Made by a program: the position numbers and the translations under genes. DNA of 64,000 nt, taken from the NCBI GenBank assembly GCA_023138975.1, contig JAGLON010000017.1, forward strand, positions 62,001-126,000, written 5' to 3'. This document shows positions 2,102 through 51,358 of this stretch, piece by piece; position 1 is the stretch's first letter, and the number at the start of each line of letters is the position of its first letter. The stretch is from Candidatus Zixiibacteriota bacterium (GTDB lineage Bacteria > Zixibacteria > MSB-5A5 > GN15 > JAAZOE01). The notes beneath the pieces are model-generated. The model searched no databases. It saw only the letters and a program-made list of their open reading frames with translations, and was not told where the DNA came from.

Positions 2102-2860
2102 ATGCCCAATTTCCGGTCTCAGAGCGGATACACATTGATTGAACTTATCATCGTGATAATCATCCTGGGGATTCTTGCCGCCCTTGCCCTGCAACCGATG
2201 GAAAACGTGACGAATCTGGTCCGCACTGAGGAAACCATGAAGGAAATGGACAAGCTGGCCCTGGCTATAGCGGGAAACCCGGCTTTGTTGTCAAACGGAA
2301 TCAGATCTGATTATGGCTATGTAGGTGATATTGGTGCCTTGCCTCCCAATTGGAATGCTCTGGTCACTAATCCCGGAGGATATGCAACCTGGAAGGGACC
2401 ATATATTCAGGATGAATTTGCCGCTGGAGCCGGAAATATTGAGTTTAAAAACGATGGCTGGGGAGTTCAATACTCTACTCCGGCCAACTATAGTTTTTCC
2501 TCAACCGGAAGCGGTGAAGCCATAACAAAACTTGTCGCACACTCTACCGCTGATATTCTTTATAACAAAGTAACGGTTAACATCACTGATTTGGACTTTT
2601 CTCCACCCGGAATAGACAATGTTGATTCGGTACGCTTTTTACTGTCCTACCCCAATGGCAGTGGTGGAATTACAACAAGGGCATTAAACCCAGCCAAAGA
2701 CGGCTCGGCTGTTTTTGATTCGGTACCGGTTGGAATACATACTCTACGGGCGGTTTATATACCTGACAATGACACTATAACCCGAAAGATAAATATAAAT
2801 CCCGGTCAGGATTACTATGGGGATATTCAGTTTTTTGCTAATATCTGGGGTGAGATTTAA
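2102..2860 (+). CDS. GspG-like type II pseudopilin, paralogue 1
   Basis: A 252-residue prepilin with a short leader ending in Gly and the class III signal GYTLIELIIVIIILGILAAL, including the conserved Glu5. Residues about 35-140 hold a conserved block (SDYGYVGDIGALPPNWNAL, then YATWKGPYI) also found in the next three genes. Residues about 155-250 look like a carboxypeptidase-regulatory-like or Ig-like beta domain (PNGSGG, DSVPVGIHTLRAVYIPD). A prepilin peptidase should cleave after the Gly. No pilus assembly ATPase, platform protein or peptidase is nearby, so the cluster relies on machinery encoded elsewhere. A GGGAG ribosome site precedes the ATG. Its stop codon overlaps the start of the next gene (TAATG), which suggests translational coupling. 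Confidence 0.85.
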   Translation: MPNFRSQSGYTLIELIIVIIILGILAALALQPMENVTNLVRTEETMKEMDKLALAIAGNPALLSNGIRSDYGYVGDIGALPPNWNALVTNPGGYATWKGPYIQDEFAAGAGNIEFKNDGWGVQYSTPANYSFSSTGSGEAITKLVAHSTADILYNKVTVNITDLDFSPPGIDNVDSVRFLLSYPNGSGGITTRALNPAKDGSAVFDSVPVGIHTLRAVYIPDNDTITRKININPGQDYYGDIQFFANIWGEI

Positions 2861-4971
2861 TGACTAAGGTCGCAAAAAATAGCGGTTTTACGCTAATAGA
2901 AGTACTGATGGTAATTATTATCATTGGTATTCTGGCGGGTATTGCGGCGGAATCATTGACCGAATCAGTTGACAATATGCGAGAGATAGTAACCGAGCGT
3001 GAAATGGAAATGCTTTCCCGGGCAATCGTTGGTAATCCGGAAACAATGATGGCCGGGCATCGCTCAGATTTCGGATATGTCGGCGATATTGGAGCTTTCC
3101 CCCTAAATCTGCAGGCTCTTTACACCAATCCAGGCAGTTACTCAACCTGGAGCGGGCCGTATATAGCTCCCTCGTTTGTACAGGACAGTACTAATTTCAA
3201 GCTTGATGAATGGGGAGTTCCTTATTCATACACTGGCGGTATTACTATAACTTCATCAGGAAGCGGAAGTAATATCACAAATAAAATAGCTCATTCAAGT
3301 TCCGACTATTTACAAAATACAATCAACGGTACTATTCTGGATGCTGCCAACAATCCCCCCGGGGCAATATACATGAACTCGGTTGACGTTGTGGTTACCT
3401 TTCCCAATGGCTCCGGCGGCATGAACAGCAGATCCTATATTCCAAATTGGAACGGATCATTCACACTCGATTCGATTCCGGTTGGGACACATTTATTACA
3501 GCTGATATATACGCCTGAGGTTGATACGCTGACCCGTTACCTGACGGTTCTCCCCCGGCATAAAAGTAAACCATCATACCGGTTCGCATCGGCCTACTTT
3601 ACTTCGGCGGCATCGCTGAGCGGCGATTCTATTATAATATCAACTGTAGGAAACGCTGCCCTTGGTGGAGTAAGTTTCGCAGATGACGACCTGATCAAAT
3701 ACGACCCCAATACCGATGTCGGCGCAATGTTATTAGATGGTGGTTTAGTTTACAATGCCAACGAAAACACAACGGCGGTTCATATTCTTGCTAATGGACA
3801 TTGTCTGTTGTCAACCAATACTTCCGCAACCATCGGCAGTTTATCCTTCGACAAAGATGACATTGTCGAGTACGATCCAGTTGCGGGCACAGCGACTATG
3901 TTCCTGGATGGAAGTACTTTATTCTCGGCGTCTGAAAACATCAACGCCTTGCACCTTCTTCCCAGCGGTCACTTACTGCTGTCAACGGAAAACGCGGCCA
4001 CTGCCGCAGGGCTAAGCGTAGAGAAAGAAGACATCTTCGATTATGATATTATAGGTAATTCTGCAACGCTTGTGTTAGATGGCAACTCCGTATTCAGTGG
4101 CGCGGCAAATATTAACGCGGTACACATGTTAGATAACGGCAATCTGGCAATATCCACTAAAGCTAACGAAACCATTGGCAGCCTAAGTTTTGGCAATGAG
4201 GATATCATTGAGTTTGATACCGCAACCGGCATTGCCTCTATGTACTTCGATGGCGATGTACCATTCGGAACATCCAACGAGAACATTGACGCCCTTCATC
4301 TTGGTCCCGGTACTGGCGATGTGAGCGCTTACTCTAATGGCTTTGTGGGGCACTGGAAATTGGACGAGTCGAGTGATACGACCGCGGCAGATGCATCAGG
4401 TAATATCAATCATGGTATCCTGCACAACTTCGCCGGGACTGAATGGACCACAGGAAAACTGGATGGCGCTCTCGAGTTTAATGGGACCAATGATTATATT
4501 GAGATACCGCATGCGGATATTCTAAATGGGACAACTCAGCTTTCTTACTCTGCCTGGGTATATCCGCACAACTGGAGCGGAACTCGTCAAGTCATGGCCA
4601 AATCAGTTCACGGTGGAGGAACCAATCGGGCTCAGATGGGTATTTTCTCAGAAAGCAATAGAATATGCGGCCGGGCCGAAACCGTCGGCGGGCGAAAAGA
4701 TATCCGAACAAGCCTGACGAACTTAAATGAATGGGCACATATCGCGATTGTGTTTGATAGCGTTAGCTTCAAGCTGTATGTCAACGGAGTGATGGCTGAT
4801 TCCCTGACATTCTCAAATACTTCGCTTATACAGACCACGGATATGATCTGCATCAGTAAACGGGTCGGTACGCCCCAGTACTATTTTGACGGTCTTATCG
4901 ATGACGTCAGAATATATAATGTTGCCATTGCGCCATCCGTAGTCCAGACGCTTTACAATATGGGGAATTAG
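2860..4971 (+). CDS. Giant pseudopilin with internal repeats and LamG-like tail
   Basis: A 703-residue protein that starts as a GspG-like prepilin (GFTLIEVLMVIIIIGILAGI). It shares with its neighbours the block SDFGYVGDIGAFPLNLQAL and the beta domain ending in DSIPVGTHLLQLIYTPE. Residues about 260-487 contain four tandem repeats of about 56 residues with the pattern 'DDIxEYDxxxGxATMxLDGxxxFxxxENINALHLLxxGHLLLST', which resemble beta-propeller blades. Residues about 490-703 look like a LamG/concanavalin-type domain (GHWKLDESSDTTAADASGN, then DGLIDDVRIYN). A typical GspG has about 140 residues, so this is a much enlarged, probably surface-displayed, binding pseudopilin. Its ATG overlaps the previous stop. 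The ligand is unknown. Confidence 0.85.
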   Translation: MTKVAKNSGFTLIEVLMVIIIIGILAGIAAESLTESVDNMREIVTEREMEMLSRAIVGNPETMMAGHRSDFGYVGDIGAFPLNLQALYTNPGSYSTWSGPYIAPSFVQDSTNFKLDEWGVPYSYTGGITITSSGSGSNITNKIAHSSSDYLQNTINGTILDAANNPPGAIYMNSVDVVVTFPNGSGGMNSRSYIPNWNGSFTLDSIPVGTHLLQLIYTPEVDTLTRYLTVLPRHKSKPSYRFASAYFTSAASLSGDSIIISTVGNAALGGVSFADDDLIKYDPNTDVGAMLLDGGLVYNANENTTAVHILANGHCLLSTNTSATIGSLSFDKDDIVEYDPVAGTATMFLDGSTLFSASENINALHLLPSGHLLLSTENAATAAGLSVEKEDIFDYDIIGNSATLVLDGNSVFSGAANINAVHMLDNGNLAISTKANETIGSLSFGNEDIIEFDTATGIASMYFDGDVPFGTSNENIDALHLGPGTGDVSAYSNGFVGHWKLDESSDTTAADASGNINHGILHNFAGTEWTTGKLDGALEFNGTNDYIEIPHADILNGTTQLSYSAWVYPHNWSGTRQVMAKSVHGGGTNRAQMGIFSESNRICGRAETVGGRKDIRTSLTNLNEWAHIAIVFDSVSFKLYVNGVMADSLTFSNTSLIQTTDMICISKRVGTPQYYFDGLIDDVRIYNVAIAPSVVQTLYNMGN

Positions 4972-4972
4972 A

Positions 4973-6376
4973 GTGCTTCAGGCGGTTAACAACAAGCATG
5001 GTTTTACATTGATTGAGCTGATAATAATGGTCGTCATTATCGGCATATTGGCCACCATCGCGGTGCAGCAATTAGGTTCAGTGGCAGAGAACGCTCAGGT
5101 TGAAGAAACAATGCGGGAGATGGAAGAACTTTCCTGGGCAATTGCCGGCAACCCGGAACTGAAGAGCAATTTCATCCGCAGCAATTTCGGGTATGTCGGC
5201 GACGTCGGAGCCCTCCCCCCCAACCTCGATGCGCTGGTAACCAATCCCGGCAGCTATGCAACCTGGAACGGCCCGTATATCCATAATAGTTTCCAGCAGG
5301 TTTCCAATGACTTCAAAAATGATGCCTGGCAAACCGAATATATTTATTCTGGAGGGGTTACAATTTCTTCCACTGGTTCGGGAAGTAATATAGAAAGACG
5401 CATCGTCAGATCCATCGGTGATCTCATTCGCAATACTGTATCTGGAAATATATATGATCTTGATGGTACCCCTCCGGGTTCTGATTACGAGGACTCCGTA
5501 ACTATCAGCCTGACGATTCCCAACGGCTCCGGTGGAACAACAGCCAAAAGCACAACACCAGATCAAGGCGGATATTTTTCATTTGACTCTATCCCTATTG
5601 GCAACCATGACATTTTAATTGTCTATGAACCGGATGATGACACACTCAGCCATTTTGTATCAGTCCTACCCGGATCTAACCCCTATAGTGAGTATCGGCT
5701 TGTGGCAAATGTCTGGAATAGGGTTAGCGATGTAACTTATGGTCTTATCACCTATTGGAAACTTGACGAAGCTTCCGGGACGACGGCATCTGATGATGCC
5801 GGAAGCAATCCCGGGACTTTAACGAATATGGCTGGTAATGAATGGACAACTGGCCAAGTAGATGGCGCATTGTATTCCGACGGCAACAATGATTTCGTGA
5901 TACAGGACACTCCTTCCGGTCTGCCGATTGGCAATACCTCACGCACTCTTTGTTTCTGGGTAAGATACAACAGCTATCAGAATGGTCGCGTGTTTGGCGG
6001 CTATGGTAATGATGACGACGGCGAGAACTTCCAGTTGGGCATGGACTACTGGGGCAATGACCGAATCATGTTCTATGGCGGGAGTAATGCGGTCGATTAC
6101 GAAACTAATCTCATCGCCTCGACCTATTGCGACGCTCAATTCCATCACTTTGCTGTGACCTACGACGGATCGGAAGTGAAGATATTTGTAGATGGTACAG
6201 CCAGGGATTCAGTATTACGAAACTTGAACACAGTCCTGGATGATATCTGTCTTTGCGGGGAGGTGGCGAGTGGATCATGCGACAGGTTGTTTGATGGAAC
6301 GGTTGATGATTTTCGGATCTACAATCGCACGCTGTCAGATTTCGAAATCCAGAACTTATTTTATTTGGGGAAATAG
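4973..6376 (+). CDS. GspG-like pseudopilin with LamG-like C-terminal domain, paralogue 3
   Basis: A 467-residue prepilin starting at GTG, one base after the previous stop. The prepilin signal is GFTLIELIIMVVIIGILATI. It keeps the family block (SNFGYVGDVGALPPNLDAL, YATWNGPYI) and the beta domain (PNGSGG, DSIPIGNHDILIVYEPD). Residues about 255-467 form a LamG-like jelly roll (TYWKLDEASGTTASDDAG, then FDGTVDDFRIYNRTLSD), similar to the tail of the preceding protein but without its four internal repeats. It is very likely co-transcribed and translationally coupled with its neighbours. The LamG domain suggests carbohydrate or protein binding at the tip or surface of a pseudopilus. The target is unknown. 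Confidence 0.85.
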   Translation: MLQAVNNKHGFTLIELIIMVVIIGILATIAVQQLGSVAENAQVEETMREMEELSWAIAGNPELKSNFIRSNFGYVGDVGALPPNLDALVTNPGSYATWNGPYIHNSFQQVSNDFKNDAWQTEYIYSGGVTISSTGSGSNIERRIVRSIGDLIRNTVSGNIYDLDGTPPGSDYEDSVTISLTIPNGSGGTTAKSTTPDQGGYFSFDSIPIGNHDILIVYEPDDDTLSHFVSVLPGSNPYSEYRLVANVWNRVSDVTYGLITYWKLDEASGTTASDDAGSNPGTLTNMAGNEWTTGQVDGALYSDGNNDFVIQDTPSGLPIGNTSRTLCFWVRYNSYQNGRVFGGYGNDDDGENFQLGMDYWGNDRIMFYGGSNAVDYETNLIASTYCDAQFHHFAVTYDGSEVKIFVDGTARDSVLRNLNTVLDDICLCGEVASGSCDRLFDGTVDDFRIYNRTLSDFEIQNLFYLGK

Positions 6377-6378
6377 AA

Positions 6379-7113
6379 ATGAATCGATGGTATAGAACTG
6401 AACGTGGATTCACACTTGTAGAAATCGTACTCGTGGTAGTTATGCTTGGAATACTCGCTACTATCGCGACAATGAATTTCGCGACTACGGTCGATACGGT
6501 TAAGCACGAAGCGACTCTGATGGAACTTGAGGCTATTGCTAAGGCTATTACCGGCAACCCCAACGTTATTGTCAACGGCGTCAGAGCTGATTTTGGCTAT
6601 GTTGGAGATATAGGCGCTATCCCTCCTAATCTCGATGCCCTGATAAATAATCCCGGTTACGCGACCTGGGACGGTCCCTATCTTGAGCACGGCCTGACCG
6701 CCAGTGATTTTAAACGAGATGGCTGGAATATACCTTATATCCTGTTAGATACTATTATCCGCTCCACCGGTTCTGGTTCCTCAATAGATAAACTCTTCGC
6801 CCGCAATACCGCGTCACTGCTGGCTAATTCGGTTTCCGGATATATCAATGATGCCAACGGCGACCTCCCGCCATCCCCCTTTACCGATTCGGTAAGAGTA
6901 ATCATTACTTATCCCGGAGGCAGCGGTTCACTCGCATCGGCGACCACCTCGCCAAATGACAAGGGCTTCTTCAGCTTTGCTAATATGCCGATAGGAAATC
7001 ATTCCATACAGGTAATTTATCTCCCCGATAACGATACTGCCCAATATTTTGTTTCTGTAAACCCCAGCTATGCGACCCATTTACAAATCTCCTTCGCATC
7101 CGATTTATGGTAG
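6379..7113 (+). CDS. GspG-like type II pseudopilin, paralogue 4
   Basis: A 244-residue protein with the prepilin signal GFTLVEIVLVVVMLGILATI, the shared block (ADFGYVGDIGAIPPNLDAL, YATWDGPYL) and the C-terminal beta domain (YPGGSGS, NMPIGNHSIQVIYLPD). It lacks a LamG tail, like paralogue 1, so the two short forms bracket the two long ones. It starts three bases after the stop of the preceding gene and is the last of the four-gene unit. Expected to be processed by a prepilin peptidase and assembled, or to act as a minor pseudopilin, in a type II secretion or type IV-like filament whose machinery is not in the window. Confidence 0.85.
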   Translation: MNRWYRTERGFTLVEIVLVVVMLGILATIATMNFATTVDTVKHEATLMELEAIAKAITGNPNVIVNGVRADFGYVGDIGAIPPNLDALINNPGYATWDGPYLEHGLTASDFKRDGWNIPYILLDTIIRSTGSGSSIDKLFARNTASLLANSVSGYINDANGDLPPSPFTDSVRVIITYPGGSGSLASATTSPNDKGFFSFANMPIGNHSIQVIYLPDNDTAQYFVSVNPSYATHLQISFASDLW

Positions 7114-7236
7114 CATAAAAAAAGCTTGCATAATAGACCATATTTTCTATATTTCTTATAGAAATCATTTTTAAGCCCACTTCATTTTTCTTTTGTTATT
7201 GATTCCTCACAACACATTTATATTGAGGAGGGGAGT

Positions 7237-8868
7237 ATGCTTAATTCATTTTTAGTTATTATCATTTTATTGACAGTATTTTGCTTTGCTGGTGCATCGG
7301 CCGACGAAACCTTACTACCGGACAGCTGCGATAATATTTTACCCGGTGACGTCAATAGCGACGGCTTGCGCAATTACTCTGATGCGCTTGTGCTAAAATG
7401 GTTCCTTTGCTATGGTGGAGATGCGCCCGATCCACTGGCCAACGGCGATGCCAATGGCGATTGTATCATTGACTGGGACGATGTCCATTATATCGTTGCT
7501 ATGCTTAACAATATGGGCCAATTCCATCTCGATTGTACCTGCGTCGAGCCGGACATCGAAGAATGTCCCGATAGTTGTGCCAACCAAAGGCCCGGTGATG
7601 CTAATTATGATGGGAATATCAATGTTGGTGATGCAGTATACATGATGAGTGTCATGAAATCCGGCAACCAACAATATCTTCCCGCCAATTTTGACCTGAA
7701 TGGTGATTGTATATTCAGCTATGCAGACATATTATGGATGACCGGTCCGTGCCCGCCGCCAGGTCCTTGTTATACCGTACTCTGTACATGTAACGAAGTT
7801 TTCAATTCGTTTTACGACTCGTGCGATAACCAATTTCCCGGTGATGTTAACAATAACGGAAATATTAATGCCTATGATATCGACGAACTTGAGGCATTCT
7901 TATGCGACACAGGGGATTACCCCGGGGCAAATGGTGATGTCAACGGTGACTGTGTTATTGATTTCAATGATATCTATCATCTGCACGATTACGTTTATAG
8001 AAACGGTACGCCTCCCGTAGACTGTACATGTCTTGAACCGGCAACCGGAGCATGCCCAGAAGATTCTTGTCTCTCACAGTTTCCCGGCGATGCTGACAAC
8101 AATGGCTACATTAACCGGGATGATATCAATTATTTAATCGATTTCTTATCGGCTGGAGGACCTCACCCGGGCTCAAACGGTGATGTGAACGGCGACTGTA
8201 TTATAGATGGCAATGATATCAATATTCTTTGGGAGTACTATTTTTCCGACGGTCTCGGACCGGTTTACTGCACCTGCCTTGATCCGGAAACAGGCGAATT
8301 CTTTGCCGATTCATGTGCCCTGCAATTTCCCGGCGATGCGAACAGTGATAATCTTCACTTGTTTGATGATTTCTTTTTCATGATACAGTTTTTCTGTGGC
8401 GGACCACAACCAGAACCTTTATCCAATGCTGACTTTAATGGAGATTGTGTCATTGACTCGATGGATGTTGCCTTGCAAGCCCAAGCAAGAGATAAGGGCA
8501 TGCCTGTTAAACCTGTCGATTGCACTTGCCAGGAACCTGTTATCGGCGATTATTTTCAGGACCCCTGTTTTGGGAGTCTAGTAGGTGATGCCAATGGTGA
8601 TGAAGAATTAAACCTGGCCGATGCGGTCTATATCATCAATTTCTCATTCCGGGGCGGCCCCGAACCAACCCCATATGCATACTATAATGGTGATGCCAAC
8701 TGCGATTGTGCAACCAATGTCGGCGATGCGGTGTTCCTTATCAATTACATCTTCAGCGGTGGTGATGCCCCTTGTGATTGCGAAACTTGGCAACAGAATT
8801 GCCCTGACAATTGTGGACGTATTACTGCAAATTGGCTCTACTGGAATTGGGAACTATACATTCCATAG
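7237..8868 (+). CDS. Secreted protein built of six cysteine-rich dockerin modules
   Basis: The 543-residue protein has a signal peptide (MLNSFLVIIILLTVFCFAGA) and then almost nothing but dockerin modules. Six units of about 80-85 residues each start with DSC or DPC followed by a first calcium loop (PGDVNSDG, PGDANYDG, PGDVNNNG, PGDADNNG, PGDANSDN, VGDANGDE) and a second NGDC-type loop. The first five end in a CTC motif and the sixth in CDC. The regular cysteines suggest disulphides within each module, so the protein folds outside the cytoplasm. It has no catalytic domain, so a scaffold, adaptor or calcium-dependent surface-layer role is more likely than an enzyme. A GAGGAGGGG ribosome site lies before the ATG, and a strong terminator follows. 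Confidence 0.85.
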   Translation: MLNSFLVIIILLTVFCFAGASADETLLPDSCDNILPGDVNSDGLRNYSDALVLKWFLCYGGDAPDPLANGDANGDCIIDWDDVHYIVAMLNNMGQFHLDCTCVEPDIEECPDSCANQRPGDANYDGNINVGDAVYMMSVMKSGNQQYLPANFDLNGDCIFSYADILWMTGPCPPPGPCYTVLCTCNEVFNSFYDSCDNQFPGDVNNNGNINAYDIDELEAFLCDTGDYPGANGDVNGDCVIDFNDIYHLHDYVYRNGTPPVDCTCLEPATGACPEDSCLSQFPGDADNNGYINRDDINYLIDFLSAGGPHPGSNGDVNGDCIIDGNDINILWEYYFSDGLGPVYCTCLDPETGEFFADSCALQFPGDANSDNLHLFDDFFFMIQFFCGGPQPEPLSNADFNGDCVIDSMDVALQAQARDKGMPVKPVDCTCQEPVIGDYFQDPCFGSLVGDANGDEELNLADAVYIINFSFRGGPEPTPYAYYNGDANCDCATNVGDAVFLINYIFSGGDAPCDCETWQQNCPDNCGRITANWLYWNWELYIP

Positions 8869-8881: not shown

Positions 8882-8920
8882 GAACAACCTGCCGGTTAGA
8901 TCCCGGCAGGTTGTTCTTTT
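8882..8920 (+). terminator. Rho-independent terminator after the dockerin-module gene
   Basis: A 14-bp perfect stem (GAACAACCTGCCGG paired with CCGGCAGGTTGTTC) with a 7-base loop is followed by TTTT. It lies 13 bp after the stop of the dockerin-module gene and separates it from the protease gene. Confidence 0.85.
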
Positions 8921-9015: not shown

Positions 9016-9043
9016 TTGACAAATCGGCCTCAGTGCGTATATT
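9016..9043 (+). promoter_or_regulatory. Sigma70-type promoter for the M6 protease gene
   Basis: TTGACA (9016-9021), a 16-base spacer and TATATT (9038-9043) lie about 70 bp upstream of the protease ATG. The boxes match the housekeeping consensus well. This was read by eye and no start site is known. Confidence 0.55.
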
Positions 9044-9113: not shown

Positions 9114-11993
9114 ATGCAGTCGTTTATCAAGAACCCGGTTTCATTGACAGCATTTATCCTGTTTTTATTTTACTCTTTATCGCAGGCGGTAATGCCTCCG
9201 GCTCCACCGGAATGGTATTCTGAGCGGATGAAACAACCGATTCCGAAAAACTACTCAAGGGCAATCCCGGCTCAAGCGGTAAAGATACAAAATGAAATGG
9301 CCAAACTTCCAGTCAAAAGTAACAAAGCGGATACCGATAATCTACTGATCATTCTCGTTGAGTTTCCAGACCATCCGGCAAATTCAATAATGCATCCGCA
9401 ATCTGCATATGAAGACATGATGTTCTCGATCGGTGTTTTATCTACTGGATCATTGGTTGAGTATTATCAGGAGGTTTCTTACGGCGCATTTACTCCTGCC
9501 GGAACTGTATCAGTTTGGATCATGGCGCCTCATCCCTATTCATACTACACCGATGGCAGTTATGGTACCGGGAGTTTCCCCAACAATTCGCAAGGCTTAT
9601 TGGAAGACTGTGTTAGTCAGTTGGACCTTTTATTCGATTTTAGCGACTTTGACAACGATGGCGATGGATTTGCCGAAGGCATTTTCTTGGTTCATGCCGG
9701 TCCCGGCGCGGAAGAGACTGGTAGCGCCGATGACATCTGGTCTCATGCATGGTACCACGAATATATGACCGACGATGGCGTATCCACCGGGCGCTATTCT
9801 ACCGAACCAGAAGAATTAACGGACGGAAGTATGATCCCTATCGGTGTTTTTTGTCACGAGTACGGCCATGTGCTGGGCTTGCCCGATTTATACGATACCG
9901 ATGGATCATCAGAAGGTATCGGTGTCTATTGCCTGATGGCCGGAGGCTCCTGGGGAGCGTTGCCGGGTAACCCCGAACGCCCAACTCATATGTCCGCGGA
10001 AATGAAACGCCGCCTCGGCTGGATGACACCGACCGAAATCACAGGCAACCTGGAAAACCTTACTATCCTTCCCGCCGCAACCAACTCCGACTGCTATCGA
10101 GTTACAAATCCGGCAAATTCTGGTGAGTATTTCCTTATTGAAAACCGCGCCAAAATAGGTTTCGATTCTCTTTTCCGGGGCAATGGCGGACTCGCTATCT
10201 GGCATGTGGATCAATCCGGCAATCAGCGTGATGAAACCCATCGCTATGTGTCACTCGAACAGGCCGATGGTAGCGGTGATCTGGAGCGCGATTTTGGCAC
10301 AGGCAACCGACATCCTCGTACCAACCGAGGCGATGCCGGTGATCTGTTTCCATTCCTTCAGGGTAACGATTATTTCAGTTTCTCATCGCATCCAAGCAGT
10401 TTTTCATACGACGGCTCTGATGCGTTCATGACGATAGACAAAATTACTCAAAACGGTAATGATATCAATGTAGATATACTTACTTCTCCAGAAGATCCGA
10501 TATACCGCTTTGAATCCTATGCAATTGTCGATGATTCTGCCAGTAATTTTAATACTGAAGCAGACTCTGGAGAAATAGTTAACCTTTATGTAACCCTTGC
10601 GTGTGACGGCGTCGGTTCCGATGTAGTTGCTGCACAACTGTCTACTTCTGATACAAGAGTAAGTGTATATTCAGGACATCCTGATTATTATTATGCAAGT
10701 CTAGGACATAATTCCTATTTAGTTAATTCATACAATCCTTTTAAAATTCAAGTAATGAGTCCAAACAACGACTCTGCCGTTACTTTCACATTGTCTCTCA
10801 TGGCTGAAGGTGTGCCCTATGAGTTAGATTTTAAAATGAACATCAACCGCCAAAATATCTTGGTTGTGCTGGATAACAACGGTTCACACTGGTCAGATAA
10901 CATAGTCGAGGCATTACATCAAGTAGGAACATATTCATTCGATGTCTGGTCAACCTCTGAATCCGGCACACCGGAATACGATGACCTTATTCCATATAAT
11001 GCGATCCTCTGGACAACGGCATCTTATTTTGGAACTCGAACGACAACTCCGAGTTATGAAAACTGCCTGTCAGCCGAAGAACTCGATGTCCTAACAGCCT
11101 ACCTTGATGCCCATGGACGGGTCGGACTCTTCAGTCAAGATTACCTGTACGATTTGGGACTCAACAGTTTCGCATCGAACTATCTCATGGTTCAGAGCTT
11201 CACCGAGGATCAACTGGTTGATTCTATTGGAGGTGCGTCCGGATACTACACCGGCCCTGGAGCGACGGCAACATGGTCGATGTATGACTACACCGATTTT
11301 ATTGTCCCCGGCACAGGCGCTAATTTATCTATCATGCAGAATGGAACATCCAACGGCGTAGGTCTCCAATACCCGGCAATAGCTCCGTCAGCTGACTTTT
11401 TCGCAACAACGTTCACTTCTCTGGCAATTGAGCGGCTTGACACACCTTCTCTTGAAGGACTACTATCTGACTGGCTGGGTTGGATGATGACCAATCCCGG
11501 TGTCGATGTTCCGTTGCCGATTGCTCCGGATGAGGGCGATACGCTTGAGACATCACCTATAAACTTCTCATGGACACCAGTTGATGGAGCCATTAAGTAC
11601 CAGGTGATAATCACTACCGATTTTGAACTTACTAATATTGTTGATGACATTCAGAGTACCGAACCACAGGCAGATTATACTTCGGGACTGGCAGAAGGAG
11701 ATTACTTCTGGGCTGTCCATTCGATGAGTGCCACCGATACCTCGGCGTATTCACCAAGAGCGACCTTCACATTCCATATCCCTTATATCTGCGGTGATGC
11801 CAACGGCGACGAAACTGTGAATGTCGGCGATGCGGTACACATCATCAATTATGCTTTCAAGGGTGGCCCTGCGCCTGACCCGATAGCAGCCGGTGATGCC
11901 AACTGTGATGAGACATGCAATGTTGGCGATGCGGTGTATATCATCAACTACGCCTTCAAAGGCGGCCCTGCCCCCTGTGCCAACTGTCCGTAG
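9114..11993 (+). CDS. M6-family (immune inhibitor A-like) secreted metalloprotease with dockerin
   Basis: A 959-residue secreted zinc peptidase. An N-terminal signal segment (about 1-26) precedes the catalytic domain, which contains HEYGHVLGLPDLYD near residues 248-261, the HExxHxxGxxD zinc and catalytic motif of M6 peptidases, followed by the LMAGGSWG turn. Middle residues (about 460-790) are beta-rich and partly flavodoxin-like in pattern. Residues about 800-895 resemble a fibronectin-like module (INFSWTPVDGAIKYQVI). The last 55 residues are a dockerin pair (GDANGDETVNVGDAVHIINY and its repeat). It probably degrades extracellular protein, and the dockerin may anchor it to a surface scaffold. 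It has its own promoter and sits alone between two terminator-like hairpins. Confidence 0.9.
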   Translation: MQSFIKNPVSLTAFILFLFYSLSQAVMPPAPPEWYSERMKQPIPKNYSRAIPAQAVKIQNEMAKLPVKSNKADTDNLLIILVEFPDHPANSIMHPQSAYEDMMFSIGVLSTGSLVEYYQEVSYGAFTPAGTVSVWIMAPHPYSYYTDGSYGTGSFPNNSQGLLEDCVSQLDLLFDFSDFDNDGDGFAEGIFLVHAGPGAEETGSADDIWSHAWYHEYMTDDGVSTGRYSTEPEELTDGSMIPIGVFCHEYGHVLGLPDLYDTDGSSEGIGVYCLMAGGSWGALPGNPERPTHMSAEMKRRLGWMTPTEITGNLENLTILPAATNSDCYRVTNPANSGEYFLIENRAKIGFDSLFRGNGGLAIWHVDQSGNQRDETHRYVSLEQADGSGDLERDFGTGNRHPRTNRGDAGDLFPFLQGNDYFSFSSHPSSFSYDGSDAFMTIDKITQNGNDINVDILTSPEDPIYRFESYAIVDDSASNFNTEADSGEIVNLYVTLACDGVGSDVVAAQLSTSDTRVSVYSGHPDYYYASLGHNSYLVNSYNPFKIQVMSPNNDSAVTFTLSLMAEGVPYELDFKMNINRQNILVVLDNNGSHWSDNIVEALHQVGTYSFDVWSTSESGTPEYDDLIPYNAILWTTASYFGTRTTTPSYENCLSAEELDVLTAYLDAHGRVGLFSQDYLYDLGLNSFASNYLMVQSFTEDQLVDSIGGASGYYTGPGATATWSMYDYTDFIVPGTGANLSIMQNGTSNGVGLQYPAIAPSADFFATTFTSLAIERLDTPSLEGLLSDWLGWMMTNPGVDVPLPIAPDEGDTLETSPINFSWTPVDGAIKYQVIITTDFELTNIVDDIQSTEPQADYTSGLAEGDYFWAVHSMSATDTSAYSPRATFTFHIPYICGDANGDETVNVGDAVHIINYAFKGGPAPDPIAAGDANCDETCNVGDAVYIINYAFKGGPAPCANCP

Positions 11994-14598: not shown

Positions 14599-15876
14599 AT
14601 GGCAGAGATTACACCTGTCAAAGACCAAATCACGGCCGATGTGCTGGTTGTGGGCGGAGGCATCGCCGGAATAACCAGCGCTATTGAGACCGCTGAGGTC
14701 GGTAAACAAGTGATACTCTTAGAGAAAGAACCGTCTTTGGGCGGTCGGGTCGCTGCAATGAACCTGTATTTCCCTAAGATGTGTCCGCCTACCTGCGGAA
14801 TCGAAATCAATCTGAAACGGATCCGATTAAACCCGAATATTCGGGTTTTGACTCTGGCCGACATCGAAGAGATTACGGGTCAGCCGGGCAATATGGTAGT
14901 CACAATCAAACTCAAACCGCGCTATGTCAATGAAAGATGCACCGGTTGCGGCGAGTGTGAAAAAGTCTGTGAACTGGAACGGGAAAATACTTTCGATCAC
15001 GGTATGTCTAAAACGAAAGCTATTTATATACCGCATCTTATGGCTTATCCGGCTCGCCATATCATCGACCCGGAATTCGTCAAAGACGAAAGCATGAAAA
15101 AAGTCGCCGAGGCTTGTCCTTACGATGCCATCGATCTGGACATGGAAGCCAAAACAATCACCGCCAAAGTCGGCGGAATTGTCTGGGCAACCGGCTGGAA
15201 ACCGTACGATGCCACCAAAATTGACAATCTGGGCTTCGGTAAATATAAAAACGTTCTGACTAACGTTATGATGGAACGCCTGGCATCAGCCAACGGTCCG
15301 ACCAAGGGCAAAATCATTCGCCCCTCGGATAACAAAGAAGTCACTTCGGTTGGGTTTGTTCAATGCGCCGGCTCTCGTGATGAGAACCATCTCCCCTACT
15401 GCTCAGCCATCTGCTGCCTGGCTTCGATGAAACAGACGACTTATATCAGAGATCAGTATCCGGACGCAGAAATCCACATGTTCTATATTGATGTTCGTTC
15501 CCCGGGCCGTCTCGAAGATTTCTATACCAAGAAACAGGAAGACGAGAAAGTGCATTTCCATCGCGGTAAAGTCGCCAAGATTACCGAAAACGCTGATAAT
15601 GGAAATTTGATACTGCATGCGGAAAACACCCTGACCGGTAAAATGACCACGACCGAAGTCGAAATGGCCATTTTGGCTATCGGAATGGTTCCCAATGCAG
15701 TTGACAGTCCGCCCCCGCTTGATACCAAGCTGGATGAATACGGGTTTGTCGCGCAGGATAATGATAACGGTATCTATGGAGCCGGCGTGGCCTCACGGCC
15801 ATTCGACGTTTCCGGAGCAAATATGGATGCTACCGGCGCTGCCCTGAAAGCCATTAACAGCGGGGTAAGGAGGTAA
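14599..15876 (+). CDS. qmoA: QmoA, HdrA-like flavoprotein of the Qmo complex
   Basis: A 425-residue FAD protein, subunit A of the quinone-interacting membrane-bound oxidoreductase that passes electrons to APS reductase. The N-terminal dinucleotide fold is VLVVGGGIAGITSAIE. A Cys-rich stretch (FPKMCPPTCGIEINLK) and a [4Fe-4S] motif (CTGCGECEKVC, with a later ACPYDAIDLD) follow. GFVQCAGSRDENHLPYCSAI is the HdrA-type cysteine motif. Length and motif order agree with QmoA of sulfate reducers. GGAG lies before the ATG, and the stop is 3 bp before qmoB. The membrane partner qmoC is 20 kb away on the other strand. Upstream lies one copy of the shared palindromic operator. Confidence 0.95.
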   Translation: MAEITPVKDQITADVLVVGGGIAGITSAIETAEVGKQVILLEKEPSLGGRVAAMNLYFPKMCPPTCGIEINLKRIRLNPNIRVLTLADIEEITGQPGNMVVTIKLKPRYVNERCTGCGECEKVCELERENTFDHGMSKTKAIYIPHLMAYPARHIIDPEFVKDESMKKVAEACPYDAIDLDMEAKTITAKVGGIVWATGWKPYDATKIDNLGFGKYKNVLTNVMMERLASANGPTKGKIIRPSDNKEVTSVGFVQCAGSRDENHLPYCSAICCLASMKQTTYIRDQYPDAEIHMFYIDVRSPGRLEDFYTKKQEDEKVHFHRGKVAKITENADNGNLILHAENTLTGKMTTTEVEMAILAIGMVPNAVDSPPPLDTKLDEYGFVAQDNDNGIYGAGVASRPFDVSGANMDATGAALKAINSGVRR

Positions 15877-15879
15877 GTC

Positions 15880-18132
15880 ATGGATCCAAAAATCGGAGTA
15901 TATATCTGTAACGGCTGTGACATCGGTAAATCTGTCGAAGTCGATAAGCTCATTGAAGCCGGTACCGGACAGGGCGCGGCAGTTTGTAAAGCTCATGACT
16001 GTCTGTGCAGTCCAGAAGGCGTTCAGCTGATTCGCGATGAAATTAAGAGCGAAGCACTTACCCACATTGTTGTCGGCGCCTGCTCACAGCGGGTCTTTCC
16101 TGAATTGTTTACCTTTGGCGATGAGATCCTCGTTGATCGCGCCAATCTTCGGGAACAGGTTGCCTGGTGCCATAAACCGAACGACGAAGATACACAGATG
16201 CTGGCCGAAGACCAAATCCGAATGGGTGTTGCTAAAGTAAAAGTAACGACAGCCCCGGTTCCTTATACCGAGGACACCTCCAAAGATATCATGGTTATCG
16301 GCGGCGGTATAGCCGGTATGAATTCCGCTATTGCGGCAGCCGATGCCGGGCACAATGTTACTATCGTTGAAAAAGAAAATCAATTAGGCGGTTGGGCAAC
16401 CAAATTTACTAAAGTGTTTCCCAAAAAAGCCCCGTACAAGGACCTTGAAGATTCCGGCTATGAAGAACTTGTAAAGAAGATAAACGATGATAACAGCATT
16501 ACCGTTTATTTAAATTCCACGATTGCAAAGACTTCCGGTCAGCCCGGAAAGTTTGAAGTTACCCTCAATGTTGATGGCGGTTCGGCTGAGTTTGTCACCG
16601 GTTCGATTATTCTGGCTACCGGCTGGAAACCGTATGACGCAACCAAATTAACGCATCTTGGTTTTGGAGATTCCCCCGATATTATCACTAATATCGATAT
16701 GGAAAAGATGGTTGCCGACGGCGCCATCAAGCGTCCTTCCGACGGTAAACCGGTCGAGAGTATCGCCTTTTTACAATGCGCCGGATCCCGCGATCAGGAT
16801 CATCTGCCTTATTGTTCAGCGGTCTGCTGCCGCGTTTCTTTGAAACAGGCCAAGTATGTCCGAGAACAGTACCCGGACGCAAAGGTTTATATCATTTACA
16901 AAGATGTCCGCACTCCGGCTCAGTATGAGGCTTTCTATGCCAACGTTCAGGAAGACGATGGCATATTCATGACCAAGGGTGAGATTGCCAAAGTAAGCGC
17001 GGATAATGGCAAAGTCCTGATTGATGTCGAGGAAACGCTGCTCGGTGAAAACATTCAGATTGAGGCCGACATGGTTGTTTTGGCCACCGGCATGGTTCCA
17101 ACGACAAAAGTCGAAGACCTGGTGATCGAAAAATCTGAAGAAGCTCAGGTCGAAGGCGAAGAAGCTCCAGCAAAAAAAGATGCTCCGGCCGAAGGCGAAA
17201 AATCTGAAGCCGCCAGTGCCGAACAGGGCGCCAAGATTATCAACCTGACCTATCGTCAGGGTACCGATCTTCCAACCCTCAAATACGGATTCCCGGATTC
17301 ACATTTTGTCTGCTTCCCGTATGAAACCCGTCGCACGGCTATTTATGCCGCCGGTGCGGTACGGGCTCCCATGGATCTTTCATCAGCGGCATCCGACGCC
17401 TACGGTGCCACATTGAAATCGATTCAGGCCGTAAATTTAGTCAGCAAAGGTATGGCACTTCACCCCCGAGCCGGAGATACAACTTACCCGGATTTCTTCT
17501 TCCAAAAATGTACACAGTGTAAGCGGTGTACGGAAGAATGTCCGTTCGGAGCGCTGGATGAAGATGAAAAAGGCACACCACTGCCGAATCCGTTCCGTTG
17601 CCGCCGTTGCGGTATCTGCATGGGCGCCTGCCCGGAACGTATCGTTTCCTTCAATAACTACAGCGTTCACATGGTCTCCTCGATGATTAAGTCGATTGAG
17701 ATACCGGATGAGTTCGAGGAAAAACCGCGTATTCTGGCCTTTGTCTGCGAAAACGACGCTATGCCATCGGTTGACATGGCCGGTCTTAAGCATATGCAGT
17801 ACAACTCTATGGTTCGTATTATCCCACTGCGCTGTTTAGGCTCAATGAACTCGGTCTGGGTCAGCGACGCGTTATCGGTCGGATTTGACGGTATTCTGCT
17901 TATTGGCTGTAAAAAAGGCGATGATTATCAATGTCACTTCGTCAATGGCAGCGAGCTCGCTCATATCCGAATGGATAATGTTCGGGATAAACTCAAACAG
18001 TTAGTCCTCGAAGAAGAACGGGTCGAAATCCATGAATTGTCGATATCCGATTACCATAAAATCCCGAAAATCTTCGACGATTTTCTCGAAGTTATGGAAC
18101 AGGTTGGACCAAACCCATACAAAGGAATGTAG
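15880..18132 (+). CDS. qmoB: QmoB, HdrA-like flavoprotein with MvhD-like C-terminus
   Basis: A 750-residue subunit B of Qmo. Residues 1-130 are the HdrA N-terminal domain (GVYICNGCDIGKSVEVDKL, VVGACSQRVFPELF). An FAD fold (IMVIGGGIAGMNSAIAAAD) and the motif LQCAGSRDQDHLPYCSAVC follow. Two [4Fe-4S] clusters are seen (CTQCKRCTEECPFG and CRRCGICMGACPE), and the C-terminus resembles MvhD/FrhD (LIGCKKGDDYQCHFVNG). Between the FAD domain and the ferredoxin part is an unusual Ala/Glu/Lys-rich linker (KSEEAQVEGEEAPAKKDAPA) that looks disordered. The gene is directly behind qmoA and ends before a strong terminator, so qmoAB forms its own transcript without qmoC. Confidence 0.95.
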   Translation: MDPKIGVYICNGCDIGKSVEVDKLIEAGTGQGAAVCKAHDCLCSPEGVQLIRDEIKSEALTHIVVGACSQRVFPELFTFGDEILVDRANLREQVAWCHKPNDEDTQMLAEDQIRMGVAKVKVTTAPVPYTEDTSKDIMVIGGGIAGMNSAIAAADAGHNVTIVEKENQLGGWATKFTKVFPKKAPYKDLEDSGYEELVKKINDDNSITVYLNSTIAKTSGQPGKFEVTLNVDGGSAEFVTGSIILATGWKPYDATKLTHLGFGDSPDIITNIDMEKMVADGAIKRPSDGKPVESIAFLQCAGSRDQDHLPYCSAVCCRVSLKQAKYVREQYPDAKVYIIYKDVRTPAQYEAFYANVQEDDGIFMTKGEIAKVSADNGKVLIDVEETLLGENIQIEADMVVLATGMVPTTKVEDLVIEKSEEAQVEGEEAPAKKDAPAEGEKSEAASAEQGAKIINLTYRQGTDLPTLKYGFPDSHFVCFPYETRRTAIYAAGAVRAPMDLSSAASDAYGATLKSIQAVNLVSKGMALHPRAGDTTYPDFFFQKCTQCKRCTEECPFGALDEDEKGTPLPNPFRCRRCGICMGACPERIVSFNNYSVHMVSSMIKSIEIPDEFEEKPRILAFVCENDAMPSVDMAGLKHMQYNSMVRIIPLRCLGSMNSVWVSDALSVGFDGILLIGCKKGDDYQCHFVNGSELAHIRMDNVRDKLKQLVLEEERVEIHELSISDYHKIPKIFDDFLEVMEQVGPNPYKGM

Positions 18133-18171
18133 TATACATTCCAGATTTGTTGAACGGTAAATTACAATTAC

Positions 18172-18200
18172 AAAAACCCCTCGATATTCGAGGGGTTTTT
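18172..18200 (+). terminator. Rho-independent terminator after qmoB
   Basis: AAAAACCCCTCGA pairs with TCGAGGGGTTTTT around a TAT loop and ends in a T-tract, 40 bp after the qmoB stop. The A-tract on the other side would let it also work on the minus strand. Confidence 0.9.
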
Positions 18201-18400
18201 GTTTGAGAAAAAAGTAACATGCTCCTGTTTAAAAAAACACTGCTTTATAGGGAATATAAAAATAGTTATATCCTCTCCACATTCAGTAAACATCATCCGG
18301 AAAAACTTTTATTCCTTGACAACTCATTACATTACAATCCATTACAAAACACGCCAACGAGTCGTAGGCTTACTCAAGGCATCTTGACAAATCGTCGAGA

Positions 18401-18418
18401 TAATGAAATTTTTCACAA
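18401..18418. promoter_or_regulatory. Operator palindrome 1 upstream of dsrA
   Basis: TAATGAAATTTTTCACAA keeps the TGA-N6-TCACAA core. It ends 7 bp before the -35 box of the dsrA promoter, the same geometry as at qmoC, which fits an activator or a repressor touching the -35 region. Confidence 0.55.
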
Positions 18419-18425
18419 AATCCGC

Positions 18426-18454
18426 TTGACTATAATGAGGGAATTGGTTAATAT
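18426..18454 (+). promoter_or_regulatory. Promoter for the dsr operon
   Basis: TTGACT (18426-18431), 17 bases, TAATAT (18449-18454). It is about 150 bp before dsrA and is bracketed by two operator palindromes. A second possible start is the extended -10 box TGGTATAAA ending at 18578, just after the second palindrome. Confidence 0.6.
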
Positions 18455-18518
18455 ATCCTCTGATTAAGAGGAGAATATTCGTTTTTTTGACTATTGCGAT
18501 TACGTCAAACGTCCGATA

Positions 18519-18536
18519 TTGTGAAAAAAAGCACAA
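18519..18536. promoter_or_regulatory. Operator palindrome 2 upstream of dsrA
   Basis: TTGTGAAAAAAAGCACAA has both outer arms intact (TTGTG and CACAA) and one central mismatch. It lies downstream of the proposed start from the 18426 promoter, or just upstream of an extended -10 box (TGGTATAAA), so it could repress the first or control the second. Confidence 0.65.
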
Positions 18537-18611
18537 TCTCGGCAATAAGAGCGATAAGAAATAAAACGCTGGTATAAATTCCAAATTGTACTTTGTAGAT
18601 AAGGAGTCACA

Positions 18612-19826
18612 ATGGCGGATCAACTCCCAAACACCCCAATTCTCGACGAGCTCGAAAAGGGTACTTGGCCTAGTTTTGTAAAAGAAATCAAATTAGCGGC
18701 CAAAAACAGCCCAATGTCTCGCGATCTTCTTGGACTCTTGGAACAGTCTTATGAAGAAAAAATCGGCCATTGGAAACATGGCGGTATTGTTGGTGTAATG
18801 GGTTATGGTGGTGGTGTCATCGGAAGGTATTCAGATCTTCCTGAGAAATACCCCAACGTTTCACATTTCCATACGATTCGAATCAATCAGCCGTCCGGCT
18901 GGTTTTACACCTCAGAAGCTCTGCGCACGCTTTGCGATATCTGGGACAAACATGGTTCCGGTTTGACCAACATGCATGGTTCCACCGGTGATATCGTTTT
19001 CCTCGGCTGCCGCACAGAAGCGCTAGAGCCAATCTTTTCGGAGTTAACCGAAGCTGGCTTTGACCTTGGCGGTTCCGGCTCAGATGTTCGTACTCCGAGC
19101 TGTTGCGTCGGCCCGGCCCGTTGCGAGTGGGCTTGTTATGATACGCTTGCGTTAACTTACGACTTAACCATGCATTATCAAGACGAACTGCATCGTCCGG
19201 CCTTCCCGTATAAGTTCAAATTTAAAATGTCCGGTTGCCCGAATGACTGCGTTGCATCAATTGCCCGCTCCGATATGTCCATCATCGGAATCTGGCGTGA
19301 CGACATCCAGATTAATCATGATGAAGTCACAAAATACGCCGAAGGCGGCATGAACATTCAGCGTGATGTTGTTGGCAATTGCCCCGGTAAGTGTATGGAT
19401 TGGGATGGCAAAGAACTCAAGATTGAGAATAGCTATTGCCGCCACTGCATGCACTGCATTAACGTTATGACCAAGGCTCTGCGCCCCGGTAAAGATCGCG
19501 GCGCCTGTGTCCTCCTCGGATCCAAAGCTCCGATCGTTGAAGGTGCTCTGTTGTCATCAGTTCTGATTCCGTTCTGGAAACCGAAACCACCGTACACCGA
19601 CTTGAAAGACATGGTCGAACGGATGCATGACGTATGGTGTGAAGAAGGTAAGGCCCGTGAACGTATTGGAGAATTCATCCAGCGCGTCGGTCTGGGCAAC
19701 TTCTTGGAAGAGTGCGAGATTGACATTGCTCCGGAAATGGTTGCCCATCCCCGTGAGAACCCATATATCTTCTATGAAGAATACTATGAAGAAGATGACG
19801 GCGAAGAGGATGAAGACGGCGAATAA
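18612..19826 (+). CDS. dsrA: DsrA, dissimilatory sulfite reductase alpha subunit
   Basis: A 404-residue cytoplasmic subunit of the siroheme enzyme that reduces sulfite in the last step of sulfate reduction. Visible marks are the siroheme/[4Fe-4S] cysteines ([14 protein letters not shown] and [18 protein letters not shown]) and a ferredoxin region ([19 protein letters not shown]). Length and motif order agree with DsrA. The C-terminus carries an unusual acidic tail ([14 protein letters not shown]) that I do not remember from the textbook enzymes. GGAG lies 8 bases before the ATG. dsrB follows after 56 bp. Being first in the operon, it is directly behind the promoter with two operators. Confidence 0.97.
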
Positions 19827-19882
19827 TTCGTCGCCGAACGTTAACGAGAAATTAACCTTTTGAATGATATAGAGGTTTTAAA

Positions 19883-20953
19883 ATGGCTGAAAGATTAACC
19901 GATATAGGCCCGCCACATTATGAGAAGTTTCTGCCTCCGATTGTTAAGGAAAACTATGGTAAGTGGCTGTATCATGAAGTTCTGAAACCAGGTGTCATGG
20001 TTCACGTTTCTGAATCCGGCGCCAAATTATTTACGATTCGTGCCGGTTCACCGCGCCTTATCAGCACCGAAAAGATTCGCAATTATGCTGATCTTGCTGA
20101 AAAATACTGCGGCGGTCATCTCCGTTTCACCAGCCGTCACAATGTTGAGTTTTTACTTACCGACGAAAAGAACATCGATCCTCTGATTAAGGATTTGGCT
20201 GATCTGGGACACCCGGTCGGCGGTATTGGCAATGCTATCTCCAGCATCGTCCATACTCAGGGTTGGGTTCACTGTCACTCGGCCGCGACCGATGCGTCCG
20301 GTGTTGTAAAAGCCGTAATGGATGATCTGAACGAGTACTTTACCAGCACCAAGCTTCCGGGTAAACTCCGTATAGCTTTGGCTTGCTGTCTTAACATGTG
20401 CGGCGCAGTTCACTGTTCGGATATCGCTATTCTTGGTATTCACCGTCGTCCTCCGAAAGTCAACCACGACACCTTGAGAAAGATGTGTGAAATCCCGAGT
20501 GTGAGCGCGTCCTGTCCGACAGCTGCTATTCGCCCGGCAACCGTTAACGGCAATCCATCGGTAGAGGTTTTGGAAGACCGCTGTATGTTCTGCGCGAACT
20601 GCTACACGGTCTGTCCGTCAATGCCTCTGAACGATCCGCTGAATGACGGTATTTCCATCTGGATCGGTGGCAAGGTATCCAACGCCCGCCACGAGCCAAT
20701 GTTCTCGAAACTGGCTATCCCGTTCATCCCGAACAATCCTCCGCGCTGGCCCGAAGTGACCACCGCGATCAGGAACATTGTCGAACTGTGGGCAGCTAAT
20801 GCCAATAAGTACGAACGTATGGGTGAGTGGATTGAACGTATCGGTTGGCCTAAATTCTTTAAGATGTCGGGTATTGAGTTCCAGAAGGAACATATCGACG
20901 ACTTTAAGCACGCCGGTCTGACCTTCAAACGTTCAACACATATAACCTTTTAA
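19883..20953 (+). CDS. dsrB: DsrB, dissimilatory sulfite reductase beta subunit
   Basis: A 356-residue partner of DsrA and carrier of the catalytically active siroheme in known enzymes. Seen here are the typical stretch [20 protein letters not shown], the cluster cysteines in [17 protein letters not shown], and a ferredoxin domain ([25 protein letters not shown]). Length is as expected. An AGAGG ribosome site precedes the ATG. dsrD starts 12 bp after the stop. Whether the enzyme is of the reductive bacterial type needs a tree, but the gene next door (dsrD) and the presence of sat/apr/qmo argue for the reductive direction. Confidence 0.97.
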
Positions 20954-20964
20954 GGACAATAGTC

Positions 20965-21210
20965 ATGGCGAAAACAGCTGAAGAAATTGCGGATGCCATG
21001 TTCAAGATGGTATCGGATGCGCAAGGCCTTAAAAAACTGAAACCGGGCGATTTGAACAAGCTAATGATTCAGACGTATCCGGATGAAGTTGATAAGAAAC
21101 TCTGTAAAGCGGCGATTAAGTTACTGGTCAACAACGGCAGATGCGTTTATACGTATTTTGGCGGCAGTTTCATCGAATTACCGCACAGAGAAGGCGCCGC
21201 TAACGACTAA
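20965..21210 (+). CDS. dsrD: DsrD, winged-helix activator of DsrAB
   Basis: An 81-residue protein matching DsrD in size, position and sequence style (TAEEIADAMFKMV, then NNGRCVYTYFGGSFIELP, a winged-helix hairpin). Published work describes DsrD as an allosteric activator of DsrAB and as a marker of the reductive pathway. An AAGGA ribosome site precedes the ATG. It sits directly behind dsrB and ahead of the cobB-like dsrN, the order common in sulfate reducers. Confidence 0.93.
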   Translation: MAKTAEEIADAMFKMVSDAQGLKKLKPGDLNKLMIQTYPDEVDKKLCKAAIKLLVNNGRCVYTYFGGSFIELPHREGAAND

Positions 21211-21235
21211 TACCCGTTTTCGGGTATAGAGTGCT

Positions 21236-22669: not shown

Positions 22670-22807
22670 AAATAAGTATATAGTGTGAGGTGACTCGCAC
22701 CATAGTTTGAAAAAAGAGGAAACACTGAACTCGCTGAAAGGGTGCCGGCGCAAATGTCTGGCGCAGACATCACCGAAAGCGGAATACACTCAACAAGAGA
22801 GTTCAAG

Positions 22808-50169: not shown

Positions 50170-50532
50170 ATGAAGTGGAAATGTAGAAAAGAAGATGGAT
50201 TTACACTTCTGGAAGTAATGACATCAATGTTTATCATGTCATTCTCCATGCTTATATTATTGCATCTGGCTATGATAGCAGTCGATGGAAACACTTGGGC
50301 TTCCGGAACAACGTCCAGCACTCAGCTTCTTCAAGAAAAACTTGAAGATTTGAGATCTCAGGCTAATCCGGCTTCCGGCGCAGATACAGTCAACGATATT
50401 ATCAGAAACTGGACCGTATCCACCGTCGCGACTCATTTGCGCCAGGTTACACTTTCAGCAACCTGGTACTCTCCGGATTCAGTGGGTCAGACGTACACCA
50501 TTAACTCCTATATTAAAACGGATCTTCCATAG
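50170..50532 (+). CDS. PilV-like type IV minor pilin
   Basis: A 120-residue prepilin with signal GFTLLEVMTSMFIMSFSMLI after a short basic leader. It contains the QLLQEKLEDLRSQ helix typical of PilV/PilI-type minor pilins. It leads a run of five co-directional genes with small gaps (13-44 bp), so it is one operon. Minor pilins prime filament assembly or form the tip. No pilus motor or platform gene lies in the window. Confidence 0.8.
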   Translation: MKWKCRKEDGFTLLEVMTSMFIMSFSMLILLHLAMIAVDGNTWASGTTSSTQLLQEKLEDLRSQANPASGADTVNDIIRNWTVSTVATHLRQVTLSATWYSPDSVGQTYTINSYIKTDLP

Positions 50533-50545
50533 GAGGGATAATAAC

Positions 50546-51358
50546 ATGCTTAGAAAATTAAAATCTATAACCGGCATGACCATGGTAGAATTACTAATAA
50601 CGCTTCTACTAACCGGAATTATATCGGCGGCCATGTTTAAAGTCTACGTAAATCAGCATCACGCCTGGATACAGCAGGATAATGTTATCGAGATGCAGCA
50701 AAACGCCCGAGCTGCTATTGATGAGCTGACTCGACAGCTAAGAATGAGCGGTTATGACATTCCGTCCAGCCTGGATGCCTTTGATGCTTATAATACCAAT
50801 CCGGACACAATTATGATTTATTATAAAATCGCCAGTTGTGATGCCCCGATTGAACACAAAATGCCAAAACCTTCGGCAGAATTACGTTGTGACGGACACG
50901 ACATAAGCTGTTTTTATGACGGTCAATTTGCCTATATTTTTGATCCGGTGACCGAGGTAGGTGAGTTTTTTACCATTTCAAAAGTTCAGACCGCCGCCGG
51001 GCATATTCAACATAATACTGATCCGCTCTCACAATCATATCCATTAGGTTCCGAAGTCATGTCAGTAGAATTTGTGAAATTCTATATCGATAATAGCGAC
51101 ACCGCGCATCCAGCACTGATGGTACATTACCCTGGTATGACTCCGCAGGTATATGCCGAAGATATTGACGATTTGCAGTTCACCTACACTTTGAAAAACG
51201 GTGTTACTGTTGACACCCCGGTACTTAAAGATGATGTACGTCAAATCAGCATTACATTACGAGCTCGAACTCCCAACCCCGATAACGAACTATTGAATAA
51301 TCCATACCGGTATCGAACATACCAATCGAAGGTTTATTTACGGAATTTAGGAACTTAA
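50546..51358 (+). CDS. PilW-like minor pilin, copy 1
   Basis: A 270-residue prepilin whose processing site reads GMTMVELLITLLLTGIISAAM, followed by VNQHHAWIQQDNVIEMQQNARAAIDELTRQLRMSGYDIP, the usual PilW pattern. The C-terminal half is beta-rich. AGGAGGG lies 8 bases before the ATG. The next gene is a close paralogue. Confidence 0.82.
   Translation: MLRKLKSITGMTMVELLITLLLTGIISAAMFKVYVNQHHAWIQQDNVIEMQQNARAAIDELTRQLRMSGYDIPSSLDAFDAYNTNPDTIMIYYKIASCDAPIEHKMPKPSAELRCDGHDISCFYDGQFAYIFDPVTEVGEFFTISKVQTAAGHIQHNTDPLSQSYPLGSEVMSVEFVKFYIDNSDTAHPALMVHYPGMTPQVYAEDIDDLQFTYTLKNGVTVDTPVLKDDVRQISITLRARTPNPDNELLNNPYRYRTYQSKVYLRNLGT

Follow-up and report, generated by a model that had tools for sequence, protein, structure and literature searches.

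A secreted protein of six dockerin modules encoded behind four pilin-like genes in a Candidatus Zixiibacteriota genome

INTRODUCTION

Proteins that combine many dockerins and hold no other recognisable module have been described as polydockerins in the bovine rumen, where up to 13 dockerins occur in one protein and the function is unknown (PMC7260996). These are catalogue genes without a genome, function or context, and the metagenome-assembled genomes (MAGs) of that study contain at most two dockerins per protein. Double to septuple dockerins are known, with triple, sextuple and septuple forms in, for example, R. flavefaciens and an Oscillospiraceae bacterium, and the structure and function of the larger ones are given as unknown (PMC12484212). 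According to the same source, only the first module of the double dockerin dDoc_0689 (Clo1313_0689, PDB 8x39/8x3a), a tandem of type I dockerins from Clostridium thermocellum, has a clear binding preference, the second being functionally ambiguous. In Cloacimonadota, a cohesin scaffoldin with a type IX secretion system (T9SS) C-terminal domain is found together with dockerin enzymes (PMC8542988). Another secreted calcium-dependent protein, PilY1, primes and tips type IVa pili together with minor pilins, as described in PMC8833165 and PMC7541494. A literature search for dockerins in Zixibacteria, in that spelling, found none.

Here we describe a six-dockerin protein encoded in a stretch of 64,000 nucleotides, referred to as the window, which corresponds to contig C18:62001-126000 of a Candidatus Zixiibacteriota assembly (4.15 Mb, 94% complete). 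In contrast to the rumen polydockerins, its gene is known from a binned genome, and its neighbourhood is conserved. The protein has Cys-bearing modules and one distinct terminal module. It shares the tandem type I arrangement with dDoc_0689, but the latter comes from another phylum and a cellulosome context, and neither a pilin operon nor cysteine pairs are reported for it in the available part of PMC12484212. The polydockerin kind is therefore already known, but the literature searched gave no description of a form that is putatively Cys-stapled and ordered by position, has a terminal plug and neighbours pilin genes.

RESULTS

A probable secreted protein consisting of dockerins alone

The polydockerin gene (7237..8868, + strand) starts with ATG, is preceded by a ribosome binding site-like GAGGAGGGG (7225-7233), and encodes 543 amino acids. 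The N-terminus, MLNSFLVIIILLTVFCFAGASA-D, reads as a probable Sec signal peptide (7237..7302, + strand), with a putative cut after ...AGASA (residue 22). Dockerin_1 was the sole Pfam match, covering six stretches with a whole-protein E value of 6e-31, and the score of 106.9 bits against a cut-off of 22.9 places the protein among the type I dockerins (PF00404). A search against NCBIfam gave no match, so that by both collections this is a multi-dockerin protein, with several dockerins and no other recognisable module. Pfam detected no cohesin, as a cellulosomal scaffoldin would have, no PilY1 C-terminal domain (PF05567), and no C-terminal sorting domain of the kind that marks T9SS cargo. A search of a plasmid collection also gave no match. 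Calcium-loop matches, far above chance, are located at residues 38, 71, 121, 153, 203, 234, 285, 316, 367, 399, 451, and 486, and these 12 loops form six pairs, two per module, with a module pitch of 82-84 residues. This agrees with a first-pass annotation, made from the DNA alone, which had described the protein as made only of six cysteine-bearing dockerins.

The residue counts also bear out the motifs listed in that annotation, with five DSC starts and one DPC, a loop 2 that reads NGDC in modules 1-5 and NCDC in the last, and module ends with CTC in five cases and CDC in one. All modules are encoded on the + strand. Modules 1 (7321..7569) and 3 (7816..8061) are of the Cys type with both a helix-1 and a linker Cys, added in module 1 to DSC, NGDC and CTC. 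Module 2 (7570..7815) lacks these two and has two Cys between loop 2 and CTC, module 4 (8062..8307) contains the core four Cys only, and module 5 (8308..8559) has a helix-1 Cys, C387, without a linker partner. Module 6 (8560..8814) is an ordinary dockerin of the C-terminal type (LNLAD...TNVGD) and a candidate anchor.

Modules 1-5 differ from ordinary dockerins

In the ordinary dockerins of this genome, residues 10-11 of the calcium loops are nearly always a hydrophobic residue followed by G or A in both halves (28 loci). Module 6 follows this pattern with LA and VG, and it is the only module in the window protein that is canonical in both halves, since residues 10-11 of modules 1-5 are YS, VG, AY, RD, and FD in the first loops and WD, YA, FN, GN, and SM in the second. 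To describe this internal type, 62 modules were measured, comprising modules 1-5 and those of relatives, with a few canonical ones included. Their residues 10-11 are scrambled in the second half (loop 2), and the median identity between the two halves is 0.35, against 0.625 for the other dockerins of the genome. Calcium ligand positions 9 and 12 of both loops and 5 of loop 1 are kept at 90-100%, a figure that covers the positions left free by the selection, the remaining ones being forced by the search pattern and uninformative. Judged by these residues, modules 1-5 are a Cys-bearing type in which the calcium ligands are kept and the two-fold symmetry is largely lost. The first halves of the relatives' internal modules often retain the hydrophobic-small pair, so single-mode cohesin binding may remain.

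Of the 35 cysteines of the polydockerin, 1 lies within the signal peptide and 34 outside it. Four core cysteines (DSC, NGDC, CTC) are common to all internal modules. Stabilisation by the N- and C-terminal segments has been described for a dockerin (PMC5864761), so that DSC and CTC may plausibly be clasped together by a disulphide. Where helix 1 ends in an additional Cys, or loop 2 carries a second one, the linker tends to contain an extra Cys too: at junctions between internal modules both were present in 21 cases, only the helix-1-end or loop-2 extra in 1, only the linker Cys in 0, and neither in 12 (Fisher p 2e-8, which overstates independence because related modules, including those of one protein, were counted). 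These counts were tallied by hand, with one case (L045, EYCC) judged positive. C387 is left without a partner under this pairing rule. The same test over all modules (30/4/12/15, p 3e-4) is confounded by the cysteines of the canonical module that follows, and for this reason the count was restricted to junctions. The number of extra Cys between loop 2 and CTC is 0 (51 modules) or 2 (10 modules), and never 1. The paired extra cysteines fit putative disulphide staples, and would indicate that the protein resides in an oxidising compartment.

Among PDB sequences, the internal module type matches dDoc_0689 (8x39/8x3a) best. A two-module model of modules 3-4 was of modest to weak quality (pLDDT 66, pTM 0.48) and resembles this double dockerin (8x3a, E 7.7e-5) as well as single dockerins.

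On contig C23 of the same genome, three proteins (L059:6544-13609) have an internal-type Cys dockerin ahead of a canonical C-terminal one. A 473-aa protein (L078:5488-6909) has twelve calcium-loop motifs spaced ~21 aa apart, and is nearer to thrombospondin type 3 repeats than to dockerins.

Dockerins and cohesins in the genome

The genome contains 106 dockerin matches. In 26 of the 28 other loci that were read in detail, the module ends at most 16 aa from the stop codon, so the general rule that a dockerin occurs once, at the end of a protein, also applies here. Such a canonical C-terminal dockerin is found in the M6 family metalloprotease encoded by the next gene downstream of the polydockerin (window 9114-11993).

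The first-pass annotation had seen no cohesin in the window, and the genome profile search likewise gave none on contig C18. It had further proposed that absence of cohesins from the genome, together with lack of calcium binding, would speak against its interpretation, but the same search gave 8 cohesin matches, of which 5 were marked above the Pfam cut-off, and 57 of 60 relatives have cohesins as well. Some of those of the genome occur in proteins of 281 and 799 aa with FlgD_ig / Por_Secre_tail domains, and some in proteins ending in a C-terminal dockerin. The small 281-aa protein, which combines one cohesin with a FlgD/Por_Secre tail (L061:7600-8445), has similar frames of 274-308 aa in many relatives, and could be the receptor on which the numerous C-terminal dockerins generally dock. 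The combination of dockerin proteins with a T9SS-tailed cohesin partner resembles the Cloacimonadota system (PMC8542988), but there the cohesin is repeated, whereas the window protein repeats the dockerin.

Regarding the T9SS, the genome has 49 Por_Secre_tail matches. SprA_N, present in ten relatives, was not found in this assembly, and the long SprA model gave two weak matches only, below the cut-off; this may reflect loss or an assembly gap.

The polydockerin gene follows four pilin-like genes

Directly upstream lie four pilin-like genes on the + strand, the first with an N_methyl match (2102..2860), the second and third with a C-terminal LamG-like domain (2860..4971 and 4973..6376), and the fourth, directly ahead of the polydockerin gene, at 6379..7113. 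One pilin profile matches all four (2102-7113) over most of its length, and most of the closest named relatives of the neighbouring pilin come from Candidatus Zixiibacteriota MAGs. The C-terminal part of pilin 4 was modelled as a sandwich matching CNA-B / carboxypeptidase-regulatory-like domains and not cohesins, which rules out hidden cohesins in the pilin domains as far as this weak model (pLDDT 57) goes.

Between pilin 4 and the polydockerin gene is a gap of 123 bases, in which neither a terminator nor, in 7114-7236, a sigma-70-type promoter was found. An intrinsic terminator-like hairpin of 14 pairs (8882..8916, + strand) follows right after the polydockerin gene, and a promoter-like site for the metalloprotease gene is located at 9016-9043. 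The polydockerin gene is probably the last cistron of a four-pilin operon that would be read as one transcript. The first-pass annotation was silent on this operon, which is conserved beside orthologues in three other genera.

A polydockerin gene behind pilin genes is found in four of the family's genomes. The window, G001 and G002 each have four pilin genes in this position, and in G005 pilin genes occupy the same place. G003 has its pilin operon and its polydockerin gene on separate contigs with other neighbours, and in G004 a different gene follows pilin 4; both arrangements count against a pilin link. The pilin profile matched in 59 of 60 relatives, and tandem pilin-like paralogues with a CNA-B-like domain are conserved across the taxonomic order. 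Where the region downstream of pilin 4 was read in relatives, it mostly lacks a polydockerin, and outside the family other genes are found there, so the adjacency may be plain synteny.

Elsewhere in the window, a second pilin cluster (50185-55646) encodes two PilX_N proteins and has N_methyl matches. The region 14599-24484 contains FAD/FlpD-type (QmoAB-like), two NIR_SIR (DsrAB-like), CbiA, and Fer4_20 oxidoreductase domains, and has the appearance of a locus for dissimilatory sulphite reductase in this Zixiibacteriota genome.

Modules of orthologues partly group by position

The family orthologues have six (G003), five (G005), or four modules (G001 and G002), in G002 with a FlgD/T9SS-like tail, and in G006 two modules are visible before the contig ends, giving a range of 4 to 6 among complete copies. 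When 29 modules were placed in a tree, the terminal ones from four genera (the window, G001, G003, and G005) formed one clade (support 100/97). The window's first module clusters with those of G001 and G006 at 92/83, and module 2 of the window clusters with the second modules of G001, G005, and G006 together with module 4 of G005 (90/87). The four modules of G002 are near copies of one another. They are all internal modules, followed by FlgD_ig (33.5 bits, cut-off 27) and Por_Secre_tail (24.6 bits, under the cut-off of 27), without a terminal dockerin. Multi-module proteins of the internal type also occur in family f4 (G038, G054, G046, G056), in which single internal-type modules are common inside large proteins.

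DISCUSSION

Our tentative interpretation, to which we give a little less than an even chance, is that the polydockerin is a secreted rigid rod of calcium-loaded, disulphide-bonded modules, anchored by its last module and made together with pilin-like filament proteins. After export by Sec, modules 1-5 would each fold round two calcium ions and be held together by disulphides; with some of these seeming to fix the short linkers, the array would be stiff. Module 6, the sole ordinary C-terminal kind, would be the attachment point and dock on a cohesin displayed by the cell; in the G002 orthologue, the FlgD/T9SS-like tail would take its place. The rod would be made with the four pilin-like proteins, and a filament resembling a pilus or pseudopilus may hold it. 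The co-location of pilin and polydockerin genes is an observed feature of these genomes, while joint transcription is probable and contact with the filament a possibility. A more specific version, in which the stapled rod is carried by or exported through a pseudopilus and the terminal dockerin bridges a type IV-like filament and the cohesin-dockerin surface network, we regard as distinctly unlikely.

Of the two functions suggested in the first-pass annotation, a calcium-dependent surface scaffold fits the signal peptide, the kept calcium ligands, and the paired cysteines. The other, an inverted cellulosome adaptor with six cohesin-binding plugs that gather up to six cohesin proteins, or cross-link them on one or more cells, is unsupported by the canonical both-half pattern, which is confined to module 6, and appears rather unlikely. 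Cohesins, which are encoded here as well as by 57 of 60 relatives, would provide partners, proteins with both cohesin and dockerin would allow chains, and a study of the camel rumen interpreted multi-dockerin proteins as adaptors (PMC6071333). However, the 8 cohesin matches are few compared to the 106 dockerins, and in dDoc_0689 a clear binding preference is confined to the first module, the second being ambiguous (PMC12484212).

The gene order permits another reading, in which the polydockerin is a calcium-dependent adhesin or stalk at the tip of, or accessory to, a pilus-like filament, similar in role to PilY1. As with PilY1 and the minor pilins (PMC8833165 and PMC7541494), one secreted calcium-binding protein is encoded alongside several pilin-like genes, in this case in four genomes, yet by Pfam the polydockerin, consisting of dockerins alone, has no sequence relation to PilY1. 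T2SSE-type ATPases are present in the genome, and a PilY1 profile search of 21 genomes gave no match, though no positive control matched either. We consider this reading unlikely, as the operon has no polydockerin behind it in most relatives, and the filament thus does not need the protein, while the extra domain of the pilins is CNA-B-like and not cohesin-like. Finally, the neighbourhood could be inherited synteny only, and the protein a calcium-binding filler of surface or matrix that is under loose constraint and has expanded by tandem duplication. The downstream genes are likewise common to relatives, the G002 modules are near copies of one another, and the module number varies, but the calcium ligands and the cysteine pairing have been preserved although the proteins diverged long ago, and modules group by position across genera, terminal ones clearly and first and second ones more weakly, which makes this explanation very unlikely.

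The function of multi-dockerin proteins is described as unknown in PMC7260996 and PMC12484212. In the polydockerin family studied here, the locus is defined and the operon beside it conserved, which makes the function of all-dockerin proteins testable. The division into a likely anchor and likely rod modules leads to simple predictions on the disulphide pairs and on which module binds cohesin. If true, a dockerin that serves as a stiff repeat instead of a plug would put this well-studied module to another use.
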